Of a DNA stretch of 38,769 nt, positions 1,558 to 9,236 are shown piece after piece; position 1 is the first letter of the stretch; every line of letters starts with the position of its first letter. Source of the stretch: Bacteroidales bacterium. Lineage in GTDB: Bacteria; Bacteroidota; Bacteroidia; Bacteroidales; UBA7960. The position numbers and the translations under genes were made by a program. Under the pieces are notes generated by a model, which was not told the origin of the DNA, made no database searches, and worked only from the letters and a program-made list of their open reading frames with translations. Location: contig SLKR01000051.1 in the NCBI GenBank assembly GCA_007134525.1, forward strand, positions 1 through 38,769, written 5' to 3'.

Positions 1558-3246
1558 TTACTCTGATTTGCCGGGAGTATTCTCCCCGAAATGATCTGTC
1601 ATCACCTGCCTGAAATCCTCCATGGTCATATCATAGTTGGGGGTGAGGCTATGTTTTCCGGGGAAGTTTTCCATATGCAGAGTTCTGGTCGGGAAGGCGA
1701 ATCTTATGCCAAGTTTTTCGGCCAGTCTTACTATTTCTATCAGTATCTCGTGCCGGGCCTTTAACTCTTTTGGCCAGGTGGGGACTTCAAAAAATATATA
1801 GAACATTATTTTCAGTGAAAAGTCTCCCATTTCGTTAAACTCTACAATATAGAAGTCTTTACGTGTATCCGGGTGCTTTTCCACTATTTTCCTCAGCCCT
1901 TCAACGAATACTTCTATAAGGTCGGGCGGGGTATCGTAAGTAATGGCTATATGCATGAAGAACCGACGATATACACGCAGCCCGTGATTGTCGATGGTAC
2001 TGTCTGCCAGATTGCCATTGGGAATATAGGTCAATGAGTTGCGGAATGTCCTGATCCGGGTTGACCTGAAACCCACCTCTTCGACGGTTCCGTCAAGATC
2101 ACCGCTGGTTATCCAGTGACCAACCGAGAAGGGCCTGTCAATGAATATCATCAGCGATCCGAAGAAGTTTTTCAGTGTGTCCTGGGCGGCAAGGGCCAGG
2201 GCAAGGCCACCTATTGAAAGGCCTGCCAGAAGTGCCGTTATGTTTATATCAAGATTCTGTAGGATGAAAAGCCCGCCGATTATAACTACAAAGACCCTCA
2301 GAACCTTCCTGATAAGTGGTATTACATGGTTGTCAAGGCTGCTTTCACTTTTCCCGGCGAGTTTCTCAAGATACAGGGAGAACACATCCACAAGCTTGTA
2401 AAAGACAAGGGTGGCAAAAAGGGGAAGTATTGCCCTGAATGCGAAGGTGAAATATTTGGCGGTCTCTGCAGGGAGCTGAAGAACCGGAAACACCACCATC
2501 ACAAAGATGAAGACAACAAAAAGGCTGAGCGGTTTGGCAACCGGCAGAAGATATGGCCTTACCAGTTTGTCGTAACCCATATGGGAAGCACTCTTGTACA
2601 GGAGTTTGCTGAAAAGGAAAGTGAGTAGCTTGTGTATCAGAAAGCTGATCAGGATAAGCAGCATTATCCCAATGTGCTGCCACAGGTACAGGCCCAGGAA
2701 GGTGTAACTGCCTGCTCCCGGAATAAGGTCGATTAGCAGGTCGGGTCCGAATGGAAATACCTCACGGTGCAGACGGTCAATTTGTCTTATGCTTTCCAGG
2801 CTGTATAGCCATCTTTCGCCCCTTTTCTCAAGGTATATCTCCGGCAGGTGGTTTGTAGGTACGTATCTTGCCTCCCCTGTAAGGCTGTCGGTATGGTCAG
2901 GGCTGTCTGGCACATCATCTGTTTGAATATAGTATCCTTTCCCGTCAAAGACCTGCTTCAGCCGGGTTGCTGCATCCTCTGCCTCTTCGGGGCTAAGCTC
3001 GGGGTGCATGAAGGCCTGGGCTGCTTTTGCAGGTTCATAGCTGCCGGGCTGAAGGAAGTGAAGATGGGTTAGAAGAGTCTTTTTTGGTGTACTGATATCG
3101 ACACTTATATCCTCGCCGCCGGCTATTCTCCAGTCCTGGCCTTCCGTATCATCCCCTGACCCGTTTGTTTGGGCCTTTGTCGGCGCATTCAGAAACAACA
3201 TCAGAACGGTCAGTATATAAAATAAGGATGTGGATTTGAAGCTCAT
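1558..3246 (-). CDS. Mechanosensitive ion channel, MscS family, with periplasmic N-terminal domain
   Basis: 562 residues from the ATG at 3246, which begins an obvious signal peptide (hydrophobic 7-20, ending TKAQ). An in-frame ATG at 3306 is rejected because it lies upstream of a good -7 promoter box. Residues 27-175 are a soluble, probably periplasmic domain. About four membrane helices follow (181-205, 240-258, 265-285, 317-332), then the MscS pore helix (about 335-355, rich in G and A, with AGLSIGGLALALAAQD). The MscS beta domain comes next (SVGHWI, GTVEEVGFRSTRIRT, YIPNGNLADSTIDN), and an alpha/beta C-terminal domain runs to the end. MscS channels open under membrane tension and release solutes after osmotic downshock. 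It is transcribed away from the cotransporter gene, sharing a roughly 125-base divergent region. Confidence 0.93.
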   Translation of the reverse strand: MSFKSTSLFYILTVLMLFLNAPTKAQTNGSGDDTEGQDWRIAGGEDISVDISTPKKTLLTHLHFLQPGSYEPAKAAQAFMHPELSPEEAEDAATRLKQVFDGKGYYIQTDDVPDSPDHTDSLTGEARYVPTNHLPEIYLEKRGERWLYSLESIRQIDRLHREVFPFGPDLLIDLIPGAGSYTFLGLYLWQHIGIMLLILISFLIHKLLTFLFSKLLYKSASHMGYDKLVRPYLLPVAKPLSLFVVFIFVMVVFPVLQLPAETAKYFTFAFRAILPLFATLVFYKLVDVFSLYLEKLAGKSESSLDNHVIPLIRKVLRVFVVIIGGLFILQNLDINITALLAGLSIGGLALALAAQDTLKNFFGSLMIFIDRPFSVGHWITSGDLDGTVEEVGFRSTRIRTFRNSLTYIPNGNLADSTIDNHGLRVYRRFFMHIAITYDTPPDLIEVFVEGLRKIVEKHPDTRKDFYIVEFNEMGDFSLKIMFYIFFEVPTWPKELKARHEILIEIVRLAEKLGIRFAFPTRTLHMENFPGKHSLTPNYDMTMEDFRQVMTDHFGENTPGKSE

Positions 3247-3293
3247 TATTGCAGTTGTTGGTTTTTTATAATGGGTACCGAATGCAAATATGC

Positions 3294-3301
3294 CAAAAAT
3301 A
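3294..3301 (-). promoter_or_regulatory. Candidate -7 box of the MscS gene
   Basis: On the minus strand the bases read TATTTTTG, a perfect match to the Bacteroidota -7 consensus TAnnTTTG, about 47 bases upstream of the ATG at 3246. The nearest TTG that could serve as -33 is about 25 bases away, slightly too far, so the assignment is tentative. Confidence 0.35.
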
Positions 3302-3340
3302 TTCAAAAGGGCATTACAGATTATTACAAGGATAATTTTT

Positions 3341-3348: not shown

Positions 3349-3371
3349 GTTTGCCTGTAAACAGATTGAAA

Positions 3372-6300
3372 GTGGCAAAAGCAAAGAAGTTTGGTTCGTT
3401 CAGCGGAGTATTTACCCCCTCTATACTTGCAATACTGGGGGTTATCATGTATCTGCGTATGCCATGGATCGTCGGCCAGGCTGGCTTATGGGCAACTCTT
3501 GGTATCATACTGGTAGCACATATCATCTCAATAAGTACCGGATTGAGCGTTGCATCAGTTGCAACCGACAAACGGGTTGAGACAGGGGGCAGCTACTATA
3601 TAATTTCCCGCAGCCTGGGCCTGCCAATTGGTGGCACATTGGGTGTTGCTCTCTATATCGGACTGTCGTTCAGTGTCAGTTTGTACCTGCTTGGTTTTGC
3701 TGAAACGCTTCTTTCAACTTTCGGCATGGAGTTAAGCCTTGCGAATATACGTCTGGCAGGGGCAGTTATGCTCATTATTGTAGCGGCAATAACTTTTATC
3801 AGTACCTCTCTGGCAATAAAGTCACAGTACCTGATCATGGCAGCCATAGTGCTTTCATTGCTGTCGGTTTTTTTTGGCAGCCATGAGCATACGCCAGATG
3901 TGCCATTTATGGGTACTGCCGATGGTGCGCTCCCGTGGATAACTCTTTTTGCAATATTCTTCCCGGCGGTCACCGGCTTCCAGGCAGGCGTTTCAATGTC
4001 GGGAGACCTGAAGGATCCCAGGAAAAACATTCCAGTCGGGACTATCATGGCAATTCTCGTGGGTTTGCTGGTTTACACCGGGCTGGCCCTGTTCTTTGCC
4101 TTTACGGTTGACAGGGAGCTTTTAATAAATGATCAGCAGATCCTGTTTCATATTTCCAGGGTGCCTGCACTGGTAGTTGCCGGAATACTTGCAGCAACAC
4201 TCTCTTCGGCAATGGTAAGCATACTAGGTGCACCACGTATATTGCAGGCTGTTGCAATGGACAGGATTTTGCCCGGGTTTTTCGCACGTGGTTATGGAGC
4301 CTCGAATGAACCACGCAATGCACTATTGTTCACGTTTTTGATTGCCCTGACGGGTATTCTGATCGGAGAACTGAATGTAATTGCCCGTATTGTTACAATA
4401 TTCTTTATTATCATTTACGGGTTCCTTAACATTACTTATGCAATAGAGAGCTGGGCCGGCAGTGACTTTATGCCATCCTTCAAAATACCCAGAATTGTAA
4501 GTATTATCGGTGCCCTTGCCTGTATAGTGGTTATGATACAGCTTGACCTTATTGCCCTGATAGTTGCATCTGTACTTCTGATCGCCCTCTTTCTGCTGTT
4601 GAAAAAGAAGGAGCTGACACTGCAAACCGGTGATACATGGACTGGTGTTTGGTCTTCACTGGTAAAGACCGGACTCGCTAAACTTAACCAAAGCAGTAAA
4701 AAGACCCGCAACTGGAGGCCAAATGTGATGTTGTTCAGCGGAGGGGAGAAAAGCAGACCCCACCTGATAGATATGGGTAAGGCCCTGGTTGGTAAGTTGG
4801 GGGTATTTACAAACTTTGAACTTGCCGAGGAACCTGGCGGTGAAGTATTGTCAGGCATTAAAGGTATGGCCTTCCAGAATAATTTCAGACCTGTGCAAAA
4901 GGGAGTGTTTACACGGAGACACTCATGCAGGGATGTGTATGAGGGCATAGATGTAATTTCAAGGGTGTACGGGTTTACCGGTTTCGAGCCAAATACGGTG
5001 TTGATGGGGTGGGCAAGGAATACCCGCAATCCGGAAAAGTTTGCAGGACTTGTATCGAGCCTGAAACGACAGGATTACAACTGTGCTTTTTTGAGTTACG
5101 ATAAAGAGAAGGGGTTCGGGGAGTACAAAAAGATTGATTTCTGGTGGAGTGGATCAGGCAGGGGACTTACGCTTGCACTTCACCTGCTTCGTTTTATCAC
5201 CTCAAGCCAGAGTTGGCGTACTGCTGCCGTCAGGGTGCTCGTAATAAACAATGACAGCTCCAGGACAGATTCAATTTACAGCCTTATATCACAGATGCTT
5301 GAAAATTACAGGATGAAGGCTGATGTAAAAGTGATCAATAACGGGGTGGAGAAATTACCGGCAGAAACAATAACAGGATCAGAATCGCGCCTTTCAGACC
5401 TTACACTGATTGAACTTCCTCTATTGCCCGGTAAGGAATCGAGGCCGGATATTGACAAGGCAAATGTGCTGTGTGGCAGTGTTGGTTCTGCACTGCTGAT
5501 ATCCCCCTCGAGCTTTTTTGACTCAGTTGGAATATTGGAAGAGGAAGCAGCTGAAGAAGAAAAGGTTGCAGAGGATACCGGAAGACCGGTTGCAGATATA
5601 TTCAAAAACCTGGAGGTTCCGTCGCGTGAGATAATTTCCAATGAGGTTTACAATATTGGCCGGACTGCCTCCGGTTTGCTTGAAAAATATTTTGAACAGG
5701 GTCTTGAGAGAACACTTAAGCTTGACTCAAAGTTTTATTCCGAACTGCAAAACTTTACCCTAAGGACGTTGGAAAGTCTTGAAAAATCGATTAACCAGAA
5801 AGCTTCTGAGAGACCGAAGACATTTTTAAGGATACTGAATGATTTTTCCTTCCACTCACAGAGGCAGGTGCAACTGATGAAAGAGCAGAGGGTTGAAAGC
5901 ATAGTGAAGATAATTGGTGAGGCCAATACCGATTACCTGGACAGAATCCGTGCAATGCAGAGTATAATACCAGAGAGTCTTCGCATAAAACTGGGGCGGG
6001 AAGAACTCAGGATTAACAAAGATGACCACTTCAAGACCAGGTTTTACAAGGCTCATAAACTGTTGCTCGCATTTATCACCCGCAGGCAGGTAACCCATAA
6101 GGTGAGGGTTACAACCGCAGCGCGTTTTTTCCTTTATCACAGGCGACTATGGGAGGTTCATCAGCTGATGGCGGAATATACAATCCACTCCTTTTCGGAA
6201 GTTGTTGAAATAAGAAAGCTGTTGAACGGGCTGCATGAGCTAATTGAAAAATCCAGTCTGGAAACGGATACCCGCCACAGGGTGCAGCAGAGGATAAGAC

Positions 6301-8522
6301 TTGAAAAAGACCGTTTAGAGGCCAGACTTAAGGTAATGGAAAATGAGAGCAGGAACTTCCATTACAATGCAGGCAGAAGATTATATGAGTCCCTGCATGC
6401 CGACCTGCAACAGTTCGGCTACTATCTGGATAGTACAGGAGCCAATATAAGGAGCCGGAAATTTGCACCTTTCTTCAGGAATGATCCCGGGCTTGTAGAG
6501 GATATTGAAAGCTTTTCTGTTATCTGGTCAAAAAACATAGGTGCATTTATAAACAAAGCCCTGCTTGATTTTTACGTATTGTCGCTGAAGAGCCGGATAC
6601 ACTCTAAAATCAGGAAATACCAGAATGATTTCCGCACAGCTCTTGAGGTCAATATGATGAGAAAGATTGAGAAGTTCGAGGGTTTTGCATACAAGCTTCC
6701 CGGCAAGGAAAGCAAGAAACTTGCCGGTATTGAACGCCTTGATCACGAATCCCTTGTGCCGCCACCGGTACTGGATCTGTACCATGGGTTGTATGCAGAA
6801 ATAGGTGAGCTGCTGAAAGACATACCGGAAAAAATAGAGATAAGCGGAGAGCGGATTACTGAAAAGATCAAGGAATCAGCTTTTTCAGAAACCCCGAATG
6901 TTGTTGTGGGTTTGCGAAAAACAGTTGAATACTACATAGGCACTGAACTAATTGATTTCTCAGTTAAAAAGGCCGGTGAGTCTGAAAGGCAGCTGCATAA
7001 GCTGGTGGATTCAATAAAGGACCTGGTTCGCCTTCTCAACTTCAGCCTCGACAATGAAACCAAGGATGACGCAATTGCAGAACAGGCTCAGAAGGAGGAA
7101 CAGTCAAGGTTAATTATCGCTAACTTCCTTGATAAGCTTAAGGGTGAGAAGAACAAGATCAGTAATATTACCGGCAAGCTCGAAACAGCATTTGACCAGG
7201 GCCTTAAAAATGCCTTTGACCCGCTTTCTTCTGCCACAATAAGCAAATCAAGCCTGGTGGTTAAAAGGGCAGCCAGGGATGCTGATCAGAAAGGGTTGTC
7301 GGGCAGGCTGCATAAACAGTGGGAGCGGATCAGGGATATCGCCCGTAAGAGTTTTGTCGACCTGCTCTATAGCAAAAGCGAGGGTAAGCTGTGGATAAGT
7401 TCGAGGGAGTCAGGGGGTATGACCGGATACAGTTCAAACAGCCGGCTCCTGTCGTTTGTTGAGGCGGTTACTCCCGCAGATAACCTGTTAAAAGATCTTC
7501 CTTTTTATTACAGTTCACTTTTCTCAGGCCAGTCAGGTACAGGAGATGACTTCTGGGTTGGCATGAATGAAGAGGAGAGTGTATGCAGGAGGGCCATAGG
7601 CAGATTTAAGGCGGGTTTCCCTGGAGCACTGCTTATAACCGGCCTCAGGAGCTCAGGAAAATCGAGTCTTTCAAGAAGGGTTGCCGAACATCACTTTGGC
7701 AGGGAAAATACTTACTCCCTGCGTGCTCCAAAGGATTGCTCCGCTGATATTTCCCTTTTTACGGAAAAGTTGCTCGAAACCCTAAATGCCCATAACAGAA
7801 ACCTTGATGATGTTCTAAGGGCCCTCCCTGCAGGGAAAGCAGTAATTATACAGGACCTCGGTTTATGGTGGGAAAGGCGTCCGGGAGGAGACAGGGTGAT
7901 CAAGAAATTAATGGATCTGATTGATCATTTCGGGCACAAATGCTTTTTTATAATAAATGTCAACTCACATGCACTTGGGGTAATTGAAAGGCAGACGGGA
8001 ATCGGCAGATATGCACTTGCCACCGTTCAGTGTGAGGCATTTGATGCAAGGGAGCTGAAGGATATGATCATGCTACGTCACCAGGCCGGAGGAATGAAGT
8101 TCAGGTATGATAAAAGGGATGAGGAGAGAATGAGCGAATGGGATTATGCCAGGCTTTTCAACGATCTTTTCGAAATATCATACGGGAATCCAGGTACAGC
8201 AACCATATTATGGTTGTCGGCAATAAAAAAGGTGTCAGGAAAGACCCTTATAATGCATAGCCTCAAAATGCCTGACAAAAAAGCATTTGAACTGCTGACT
8301 CCCGGTCAGTGGTTTTATTTAAGCCAGTTCATAATACACAGGAGGTTCAACGCCGAATCCCTTTCCAGAATTCTCGATACCCCTGTTACTGAAGTCAGGA
8401 ATACGATCAGGGGGCTGATGCGAGCCGGTATACTAATTGAGAAGTTTGACGGGATATATGCCATACGCCCGGGTCTTGACCTTTACCTTATTGAACAGCT
8501 CAACCATAGAAAGCGATTGTAA
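3372..8522 (+). CDS. Giant SLC12-like cation-chloride cotransporter fused to a helical linker and P-loop NTPase
   Basis: About 1716 residues from GTG 3372; the frame is open from TTG 3351 (1723 residues, numbering used here). Residues 15-418 hold about 12 membrane segments and clear cation-chloride cotransporter motifs: FTPSILAILGVIMYLRMPWI near the start, GVSMSGDLKDPRKNIP at 213-228 and GAPRILQAVAMDRILP at 293-308. Residues 450-720 match the SLC12 C-terminal domain (NWRPNVMLFSGG at 454, IDFWWSGSGRGLTLAL at 595). Residues about 740-1420 are charged and helical, of unknown family. From about 1415 there is a P-loop domain: Walker A GLRSSGKSS (1431-1439), a Walker-B-like strand AVIIQD (D1502), a GNPGTA motif and a winged-helix-like C-terminus. 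Family members move Na+ and/or K+ with Cl-, but the ion here is unknown. The NTPase end looks STAND/AAA-like and may be a sensor or regulator (inference). A small MscS-like gene follows 12 bases later. Confidence 0.85.
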   Translation: MAKAKKFGSFSGVFTPSILAILGVIMYLRMPWIVGQAGLWATLGIILVAHIISISTGLSVASVATDKRVETGGSYYIISRSLGLPIGGTLGVALYIGLSFSVSLYLLGFAETLLSTFGMELSLANIRLAGAVMLIIVAAITFISTSLAIKSQYLIMAAIVLSLLSVFFGSHEHTPDVPFMGTADGALPWITLFAIFFPAVTGFQAGVSMSGDLKDPRKNIPVGTIMAILVGLLVYTGLALFFAFTVDRELLINDQQILFHISRVPALVVAGILAATLSSAMVSILGAPRILQAVAMDRILPGFFARGYGASNEPRNALLFTFLIALTGILIGELNVIARIVTIFFIIIYGFLNITYAIESWAGSDFMPSFKIPRIVSIIGALACIVVMIQLDLIALIVASVLLIALFLLLKKKELTLQTGDTWTGVWSSLVKTGLAKLNQSSKKTRNWRPNVMLFSGGEKSRPHLIDMGKALVGKLGVFTNFELAEEPGGEVLSGIKGMAFQNNFRPVQKGVFTRRHSCRDVYEGIDVISRVYGFTGFEPNTVLMGWARNTRNPEKFAGLVSSLKRQDYNCAFLSYDKEKGFGEYKKIDFWWSGSGRGLTLALHLLRFITSSQSWRTAAVRVLVINNDSSRTDSIYSLISQMLENYRMKADVKVINNGVEKLPAETITGSESRLSDLTLIELPLLPGKESRPDIDKANVLCGSVGSALLISPSSFFDSVGILEEEAAEEEKVAEDTGRPVADIFKNLEVPSREIISNEVYNIGRTASGLLEKYFEQGLERTLKLDSKFYSELQNFTLRTLESLEKSINQKASERPKTFLRILNDFSFHSQRQVQLMKEQRVESIVKIIGEANTDYLDRIRAMQSIIPESLRIKLGREELRINKDDHFKTRFYKAHKLLLAFITRRQVTHKVRVTTAARFFLYHRRLWEVHQLMAEYTIHSFSEVVEIRKLLNGLHELIEKSSLETDTRHRVQQRIRLEKDRLEARLKVMENESRNFHYNAGRRLYESLHADLQQFGYYLDSTGANIRSRKFAPFFRNDPGLVEDIESFSVIWSKNIGAFINKALLDFYVLSLKSRIHSKIRKYQNDFRTALEVNMMRKIEKFEGFAYKLPGKESKKLAGIERLDHESLVPPPVLDLYHGLYAEIGELLKDIPEKIEISGERITEKIKESAFSETPNVVVGLRKTVEYYIGTELIDFSVKKAGESERQLHKLVDSIKDLVRLLNFSLDNETKDDAIAEQAQKEEQSRLIIANFLDKLKGEKNKISNITGKLETAFDQGLKNAFDPLSSATISKSSLVVKRAARDADQKGLSGRLHKQWERIRDIARKSFVDLLYSKSEGKLWISSRESGGMTGYSSNSRLLSFVEAVTPADNLLKDLPFYYSSLFSGQSGTGDDFWVGMNEEESVCRRAIGRFKAGFPGALLITGLRSSGKSSLSRRVAEHHFGRENTYSLRAPKDCSADISLFTEKLLETLNAHNRNLDDVLRALPAGKAVIIQDLGLWWERRPGGDRVIKKLMDLIDHFGHKCFFIINVNSHALGVIERQTGIGRYALATVQCEAFDARELKDMIMLRHQAGGMKFRYDKRDEERMSEWDYARLFNDLFEISYGNPGTATILWLSAIKKVSGKTLIMHSLKMPDKKAFELLTPGQWFYLSQFIIHRRFNAESLSRILDTPVTEVRNTIRGLMRAGILIEKFDGIYAIRPGLDLYLIEQLNHRKRL

Positions 8523-8534
8523 AACAACAACATC

Positions 8535-9236
8535 ATGGATATCGTTATATTCATCTTTGCCGGTCTGCTGCTATACTTCCTTTTCCGTATTCTGATGAGG
8601 ATAAGCAAAACATTTATTGGTAGTAGTTCAATTCGGAAGATTAGCATGGCTTTACTGCCGGCCCTGGAGCTTGTTATATGGGTTGCATATGTGTTCCGGG
8701 GGTTGTATATGCTGTTTGGAGGGCGTGTTTATTACGAGTTTGTTGTGGTACTTATGGCTTCCCTGGTAATGGCTGCCATAGCCTGGTTTCTGTTCAGGGA
8801 CTATCTGTCGGGTGTGCTTCTGAAGGCTGAAAAATCTCTAGAACCTGGCAGGAAACTGAAAACCCCATATGTTGAAGGAAGGATAAAAAAACTTGGCAGC
8901 AGGGTGGTTGAAGTAATAAATAATGAGGGAGCACTTGTCAGGGTTCCCTATTCCAGGCTCAGCAGTGAAATATTCGTATTACCTCCAACATCTGAAGATA
9001 AGCTTCCGCATTATACCACTGTCACTATATCGAAAGGACAAAATCCCGAAAGGATAAGGGAAGCGGCCCTTGAACAGCTACTTGCAATGCCCTGGGTCAC
9101 CGAACCGGGGCCTGAGGTTAACATAAGGCAGTCGGAAGAGGGAGAAACTGTTCTAGGTATAACATACTTTACGCATATTAATTCACAGGCGGCAATTGTT
9201 GAAGAGAGGCTGAAAAGCTATTTGGAAAAAACATAA
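8535..9236 (+). CDS. Small MscS-like membrane protein
   Basis: 233 residues. Three hydrophobic segments (about 2-22, 38-60, 66-88) precede a region resembling the MscS TM3b/beta-domain junction: FRDYLSGVLL, then a small beta domain (PYVEGRIKKLGSRVVEVIN, VRVPYSRLSS) and an alpha/beta C-terminal part. The usual Gly/Ala-rich pore helix is poorly conserved; the third segment contains W and F where MscS has A and G. It may not be a conventional channel. The start ATG lies 12 bases after the stop of the giant cotransporter, so the two are probably co-transcribed and may work together. Assignment to the MscS superfamily rests on the beta-domain pattern and is moderately sure. Confidence 0.72.
   Translation: MDIVIFIFAGLLLYFLFRILMRISKTFIGSSSIRKISMALLPALELVIWVAYVFRGLYMLFGGRVYYEFVVVLMASLVMAAIAWFLFRDYLSGVLLKAEKSLEPGRKLKTPYVEGRIKKLGSRVVEVINNEGALVRVPYSRLSSEIFVLPPTSEDKLPHYTTVTISKGQNPERIREAALEQLLAMPWVTEPGPEVNIRQSEEGETVLGITYFTHINSQAAIVEERLKSYLEKT

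Follow-up and report, generated by a model that had tools for sequence, protein, structure and literature searches.

The window analysed here is the whole 38,769-nucleotide stretch of contig SLKR01000051.1, from a Bacteroidales bacterium. Positions 3351 to 8522 of its forward strand form a single open frame of 1723 codons, with a TTG start at 3351 and a stop at 8522. An in-frame GTG at 3372, codon 8 of this frame, is a likely alternative start and may be the true one, because the alignments of most full-length relatives begin at query residues 4-11; residues of the fusion are numbered here from the TTG, as are those of the initial annotation, although it gave 3372 as the start. The encoded protein joins an SLC12 membrane core (residues 12-420; 3384..4610), an SLC12-type cytosolic domain (about residues 421-720; 4611..5510), a long helical region (residues 741-1380; 5571..7490) and a predicted AAA+/P-loop domain (residues 1396-1638; 7536..8264) containing a Walker A motif (residues 1431-1439; 7641..7667), and it ends in a winged-helix-like part (residues 1643-1723; 8277..8519). 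Twelve bases after the fusion gene, on the same strand, lies a gene for a small MscS-like membrane protein of 233 amino acids (8535..9236). The initial annotation of this DNA had claimed one uninterrupted frame with SLC12, helical and P-loop parts, which is confirmed by the 1723 codons and by Pfam, solved-chain and model matches. The fusion is not a chance artefact, since full-length relatives, 33-68% identical, have their parts arranged in the same order.

The membrane core matches PF00324 above its cut-off (E 1.4e-40, Pfam search). The cytosolic domain matches PF03522 at E 1.9e-6 and 27.6 bits, with 33.7 bits in a second search, against a cut-off of 27. A full SLC12-type C-terminal domain had been placed up to about residue 720, which agrees with this match, and the proposed Pfam search by segment put both SLC12 parts above their cut-offs, the P-loop matches falling below theirs. 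The solved chains nearest to the core are those of NKCC1, KCC and NCC (7smp, NKCC1, E 1.6e-75). TIGR00930, named 'K-Cl cotransporter', matches at E 6.8e-115, but its 385 bits lie below the model's 953-bit cut-off.

Alignment to the NKCC1 chains 7smp and 7d10, the latter providing the numbering, places the Na+-site residues A610, S613 and S614 of NKCC1 at A282, S285 and S286 of the fusion; the K+-site residues Y383, P496 and T499 of NKCC1 correspond to Y112, P205 and T208. The site definitions are taken from PMC7035313 and PMC7889885, according to which positions 298 and 300 in TM1 of NKCC1, here A27 and L29, act via main-chain oxygens. All seven site positions checked (the equivalents of A282, S285, S286, Y112, P205 and T208, plus Y356) are conserved in 47 of the 50 non-duplicate rows, and in 23 of the 25 rows of the fused class; this count started from 61 rows, from which ten duplicate or truncated rows and one with columns missing were excluded. 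The exceptions are L072, which is free-standing and has one change, and two fused proteins, L094 and L095. The cation sites of the fusion thus appear NKCC-like, with both the Na+ and the K+ site kept, and by inference from this conservation the core most likely imports Na+, K+ and Cl-. A KCC identity, as the name of TIGR00930 would have it, was set aside because the Na+ site, which the KCC1 structures lack according to PMC7035313, is present here.

At the fused loci L094 (4967-10006; genome G332) and L095 (66-5024; G346), the architecture and the MscS-like neighbour are kept and cation-site residues are lost; this is perhaps a transporter turned sensor. Known SLC12 proteins (NKCC1, KCC1-4, NCC; TC 2.A.30) and bacterial SLC12 proteins of ~740 amino acids share with the fusion the core, the cytosolic domain and the Na+/K+ positions of NKCC1. 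The fusion, a bacterial relative of the salt cotransporters of the human kidney, differs from them by about 980 additional residues, which make up the helical stalk and the AAA+ end, and by its MscS-like neighbour gene.

No Pfam family comes near its cut-off in residues 741-1380. This region was delimited from a predicted model and from a profile match to free-standing proteins of ~1000 amino acids, with which the fusion has much of the helical part and the ATPase in common (hhalign probability 100, E 1.8e-46, 845 columns). The AlphaFold model of residues 741-1723, made with seven relatives, has a mean pLDDT of 76.0 and a pTM of 0.49; its residues 20-612 are mostly long helices, residues 575-664 are of low confidence, and a compact alpha/beta domain begins at 666. 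The helical segment, initially put at about 700 residues, comes to ~640 (741-1380), with long helices in the model, and the structure prediction proposed for the C-terminal part yields an AAA+ fold after it.

By sequence, the P-loop part gives matches below family cut-offs only (AAA_16, 26.2 bits versus 32.6, Pfam), and a PDB profile search yields weak matches to winged-helix chains (best E 0.045). Foldseek ranks ORC/Cdc6 chains best (7jgr_A, E 3.9e-8) and places PABY2304 and Apaf-1 further down; the whole-model TM score is low (0.17) because only the C-terminal end of the model matches. In the VIA comparison, which barely covers the model outside residues 656-898, so that the AAA+ assignment concerns that segment (protein residues 1396-1638), the segment superposes on AAA+ chains, the best being NSF D2 (Z 15.7, rmsd 3.2, 153 residues). 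TnsC is also among the best AAA+ fold matches, with NSF and ORC. On the predicted model, the P-loop domain thus has an AAA+ fold of the ORC/Cdc6 type, and the winged-helix-like part that follows it is also supported by the secondary structure of the model. Some ORC/Cdc6 alignments reach the last residues at an rmsd above 12, and the placement of the winged-helix-like end is therefore unsure.

The Walker A motif noted initially at residues 1431-1439 is present, and G1431, G1436 and the lysine K1437 are each kept in 23 of 23 SLC12-class rows. The Walker B Asp occurs in 22 of these 23 rows and is followed in all 23 by Leu, Ile or Met, never by an acidic residue; R1576 is conserved in all 85 rows having a residue there. 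Among the 51 free-standing rows with a residue at the position of the Walker A lysine, 15 have a residue other than lysine; in these motif counts the truncated fusions L013 and L014 are classed with the other classes and L008 as free-standing. Because the position after the Walker B Asp is never acidic, the domain is more probably a switch than a motor, and the ATPase would be held by nucleotide, with weak or no hydrolysis; the full conservation of the Walker A lysine in the SLC12 class agrees with such a nucleotide switch. The cytosolic domain of KCC1 binds ATP/ADP, according to PMC8280820, and nucleotide control is therefore not foreign to the SLC12 family. With AAA+/STAND ATPases such as ORC/Cdc6, PABY2304 and Apaf-1 the fusion has in common the Walker A motif, the AAA+ fold of the model and the winged-helix-like end; unlike them, it lies below the sequence-family cut-offs, has an altered Walker B and is covalently tied to a transporter.

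The small protein encoded at 8535-9236 matches the MscS beta-domain PF00924 (24.8 bits, cut-off 20.2), and its model (mean pLDDT 76.6, pTM 0.38) matches MscK, YnaI, MSL1 and MscS (best E 4.1e-11). It thus shares the Pfam beta-domain and the model fold with the MscS family (MscS, YnaI, MscK, MSL1), but it is short and its TM3 does not have the Ala/Gly-rich pattern of the neighbours' consensus, which the small proteins lack; therefore, the MscS-like protein of the window may not conduct. A larger MscS-family gene of 582 amino acids (1558..3306, reverse strand; PF00924, E 3.7e-22) is oriented divergently to the fusion. This second MscS gene accompanies the fusion in near relatives only, with related ORFs in L002, L003 and L005 and an MscS-like one in L110.

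The small MscS-like gene is a conserved neighbour. At 25 of 27 SLC12-class loci (L005 and L109, one locus, being counted twice) the local profile identifies the following ORF on the same strand as MscS-like, and 13 of these 25 ORFs overlap the fusion by 4 bases. Because the local profiles for MscS, TrkH and the P-loop part derive in part from the loci tested, the Pfam counts are the independent ones. In the 296-genome phylum sample, the ORF immediately downstream of the P-loop gene matches PF00924 (E <= 1e-3) at 45 of 52 loci, namely 51 of the 52 non-window matches plus the window, with ORFs picked blind to their identity. The locus left out, in G100, had no P-loop ORF picked, and the local profile identifies the next ORF there as MscS-like. 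The seven loci without a downstream PF00924 match comprise L047 and L048, recognised by the local profile only, L049 and L056, in which the MscS gene lies upstream, and L042, L046 and L121, which have none; no MscS gene was found beside L106 or the SLC12-class loci L096 and L101 either. Upstream ORFs, obtainable for 36 of 51 loci, match PF00924 in two cases, the reversed L049 and L056. As background, PF00924 occurs at 122 places in 20 genomes (3-10 in each, P-loop neighbours included), which at about one gene per kilobase corresponds to a chance neighbour frequency of ~0.2%. The MscS pairing extends to SAR324 loci, where the gene lies upstream in L144 and L145 and downstream in L129, L146, L152 and L151, the match in L151 falling just under the cut-off. 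The MscS-like partner in L151 (4561-7422), which adjoins the P-loop gene, has 953 amino acids and is far longer than the others.

Matches to the fusion at E = 0 were found in 19 of 20 other genomes of the same genus and 13 of 14 of the same family. In 26 of the 34 same-family genomes a single match begins in the membrane core (query start <=313) and extends to the P-loop end; six have the match in pieces, mostly at contig ends, and G311 and G329 are without the fusion. The fusion carries an in-frame stop in two genomes (G301, G327). In the even phylum sample, about 104 SLC12 matches at E <= 1e-50 were counted by hand, with two candidates scored per genome; four of them, the window included, lie in frames of more than 1,600 amino acids and the others in frames of 305-860. 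The statement of the initial annotation that bacterial SLC12 proteins normally end earlier thus holds for ~100 of about 104 matches. The architecture, which it called unusual and for which it proposed a survey, accounts, by frame length, for 4 of ~104 SLC12 matches in the phylum sample; it is not a one-off, given the 26 same-family genomes that carry it.

The groups sampled were Bacteroidota and SAR324, and in the latter a full-length fusion is present in 4 of 52 genomes. Named relatives come from Bacteroidales, other Bacteroidetes, one Kapaibacterium and one SAR324 bacterium. At L008 (7992-13136) the parts are encoded by two ORFs, SLC12 (691 amino acids) and helical-ATPase (1005 amino acids), which form a single ORF in the near relative L007; this is either a frameshift or a natural split. 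Near relatives of the fusion come from MAGs named CSSed, a name that belongs to moderate-salinity soda lake sediment datasets according to PMC6146748. No description of the SLC12-ATPase fusion or of the ATPase-MscS pair was found in an open-access library, which lacks most subscription journals.

With residues 741-1723 as query, 53 matches were obtained in 51 of 296 genomes; many of the matching frames are of ~1000 amino acids, some of about 450 and some of about 1500. In 16 of 36 loci an Amidase_3 (N-acetylmuramoyl-L-alanine amidase) gene lies upstream of the free-standing module, which may reflect shared synteny or a cell-wall link. In four of the ~1500-amino-acid proteins (L041, L043, L044 and L045) the N-terminal ~430 residues contain many hydrophobic stretches, and this part matches the CPA2 antiporter model at 1.8e-7 to 3.7e-10, far below the curated cut-off. 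A gene for a multi-helix membrane protein of 414-422 amino acids always precedes the CPA2-like fusion at these four loci; the protein has no firm family match and is related to the CPA2-like domain in L043-L045 by local profile.

MscS and TrkH genes follow the CPA2-like fusion at all four loci, and the adjoining TrkH is the only one found in each of their genomes (in G188 as two pieces with stops). In total, TrkH lies beside the module in six loci (L041-L045, L152): in L042 the genes for TrkA, TrkH and the P-loop protein are consecutive and MscS is absent, and L152, from SAR324, has TrkH, a ~1000-amino-acid P-loop gene and MscS in a row. TrkH is rare, with 1-4 matches per genome in 19 of 20 genomes. 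The genome of the window itself has two tandem TrkH genes outside the window (G000:C156:4185-7024), and the fusion is therefore not its only K+ route. The module thus recalls the Trk K+ uptake system (TrkH and TrkA), with TrkH beside it at the six loci and TrkA also in L042; it differs in that TrkA is an unrelated regulator and in that TrkH follows the ATPase and MscS genes in L041 and L043-L045. Forty-four of the 53 module loci have neither an SLC12 or CPA2-like fusion nor TrkH in the stretch fetched, many with only 1.5 kb on each side; the evidence for a K+ link therefore comes from the two fusion types and the six TrkH loci. On the tree, the SLC12 fusions form one group of 26 rows (95/91) when L013 and L014 are counted as fusions, both being truncated versions of those in L051 and L052. 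The four CPA2-like fusions form a separate group (100/100), with L042 and L152 elsewhere, and the two transporter fusions therefore arose separately.

We put at about an even chance the reading of the fusion as an SLC12-type cotransporter that carries an AAA+/STAND-like switch, dependent on nucleotide, at the end of a long helical stalk, is co-expressed with a small MscS-like protein and controls K+/Cl-/osmolyte flux. The gating of transport by the ATPase, which the initial annotation had also proposed, the ion specificity, the contact with the MscS-like protein and the cue are what we infer. The core would import K+ with Na+ and Cl- in an NKCC-like manner. The ATPase would change state with bound nucleotide and a turgor or ionic-strength cue, and the stalk and cytosolic domain would pass this state on, turning import up or down. 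The MscS-like partner would serve as a release path, or as a membrane sensor reporting tension to the ATPase. Switch, stalk and partner together would tie import to turgor.

Two other roles for the C-terminal module are each regarded as unlikely. The AAA+ part could be an assembly or remodelling factor that builds or dismantles the MscS-like oligomer, the transporter or both, with no gating of flux, as NSF, ORC and TnsC among the best fold matches might indicate; the MscS neighbour is also constant where no transporter is fused. A motor of this kind is however at odds with the missing acidic residue after the Walker B Asp in the SLC12 class and with how often free-standing rows lack the Walker A lysine, and an assembly factor for MscS would have no need of fusion to two unrelated transporter types. 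Part of the same evidence bears on a scaffold, equally improbable in our estimate, in which a degenerate oligomerisation domain holds the transporter and the MscS-like protein together and nucleotide has no role. The family scores below cut-off, the altered Walker B and the lysine absent from 15 of the 51 free-standing rows fit such a domain, but the lysine retained throughout the SLC12 class does not.

The matches to ORC/Cdc6 and TnsC, with the weak winged-helix profile matches, could also point to a DNA-binding winged helix, and thus to a membrane-tethered transcription regulator reporting ion flux to the chromosome. This is quite improbable: in STAND ATPases the winged helix belongs to the switch itself, and the constant partner is a membrane protein. 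Least probable is an anti-phage defence system, with a STAND-like sensor and a membrane effector. The general build of NTPase plus membrane protein would suit it, and PADLOC gave weak matches for a single relative of ~400 amino acids (L020: mad8, E 3.3e-4, and three weaker). The fusion is however near-universal in its own family, and the module is co-located with TrkH, TrkA and CPA2-like parts. The defence reading was rejected because PADLOC gave no match for the proteins of the window and because no match was found in plasmids, phages or viral contigs; 24 viral-contig stretches matched a pattern and none encoded a relative.

For the cotransporter with a nucleotide-dependent switch, the MscS neighbour, the free-standing module and the links to TrkH and to a CPA2-like domain, none of them noted in the initial annotation, change the picture from a transporter with a switch to an ATPase-MscS module joined to different K+ transporters. 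The recurrence of the ATPase and channel pair with other potassium transporters suggests an undescribed form of bacterial salt/turgor control. More tentatively, the conserved ATPase-MscS control module may represent an undescribed class of bacterial salt/turgor machine, in which a K+ importer is linked through an AAA+/STAND switch to an MscS-like partner for release or sensing, the transporter having been exchanged in evolution: SLC12 is fused in one clade, a CPA2-like domain is fused in another, and TrkH lies alongside at three places on the tree. The parts each come from a known superfamily; their combination and the ATPase-MscS pair did not turn up in the open-access library, and there is a real chance that they make up a new class of system.

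In humans, SLC12 transporters determine cell volume and chloride and serve as drug targets; bacterial members of the family appear to be little studied. In a bacterial SLC12 protein that carries an ATPase of its own, nucleotide control of SLC12 transport could be tested within a single polypeptide. Such control would matter in the sediment of moderate-salinity soda lakes. Should the module indeed link import to the MscS-like partner, it would show how some bacteria stop salt uptake and release from opposing each other.
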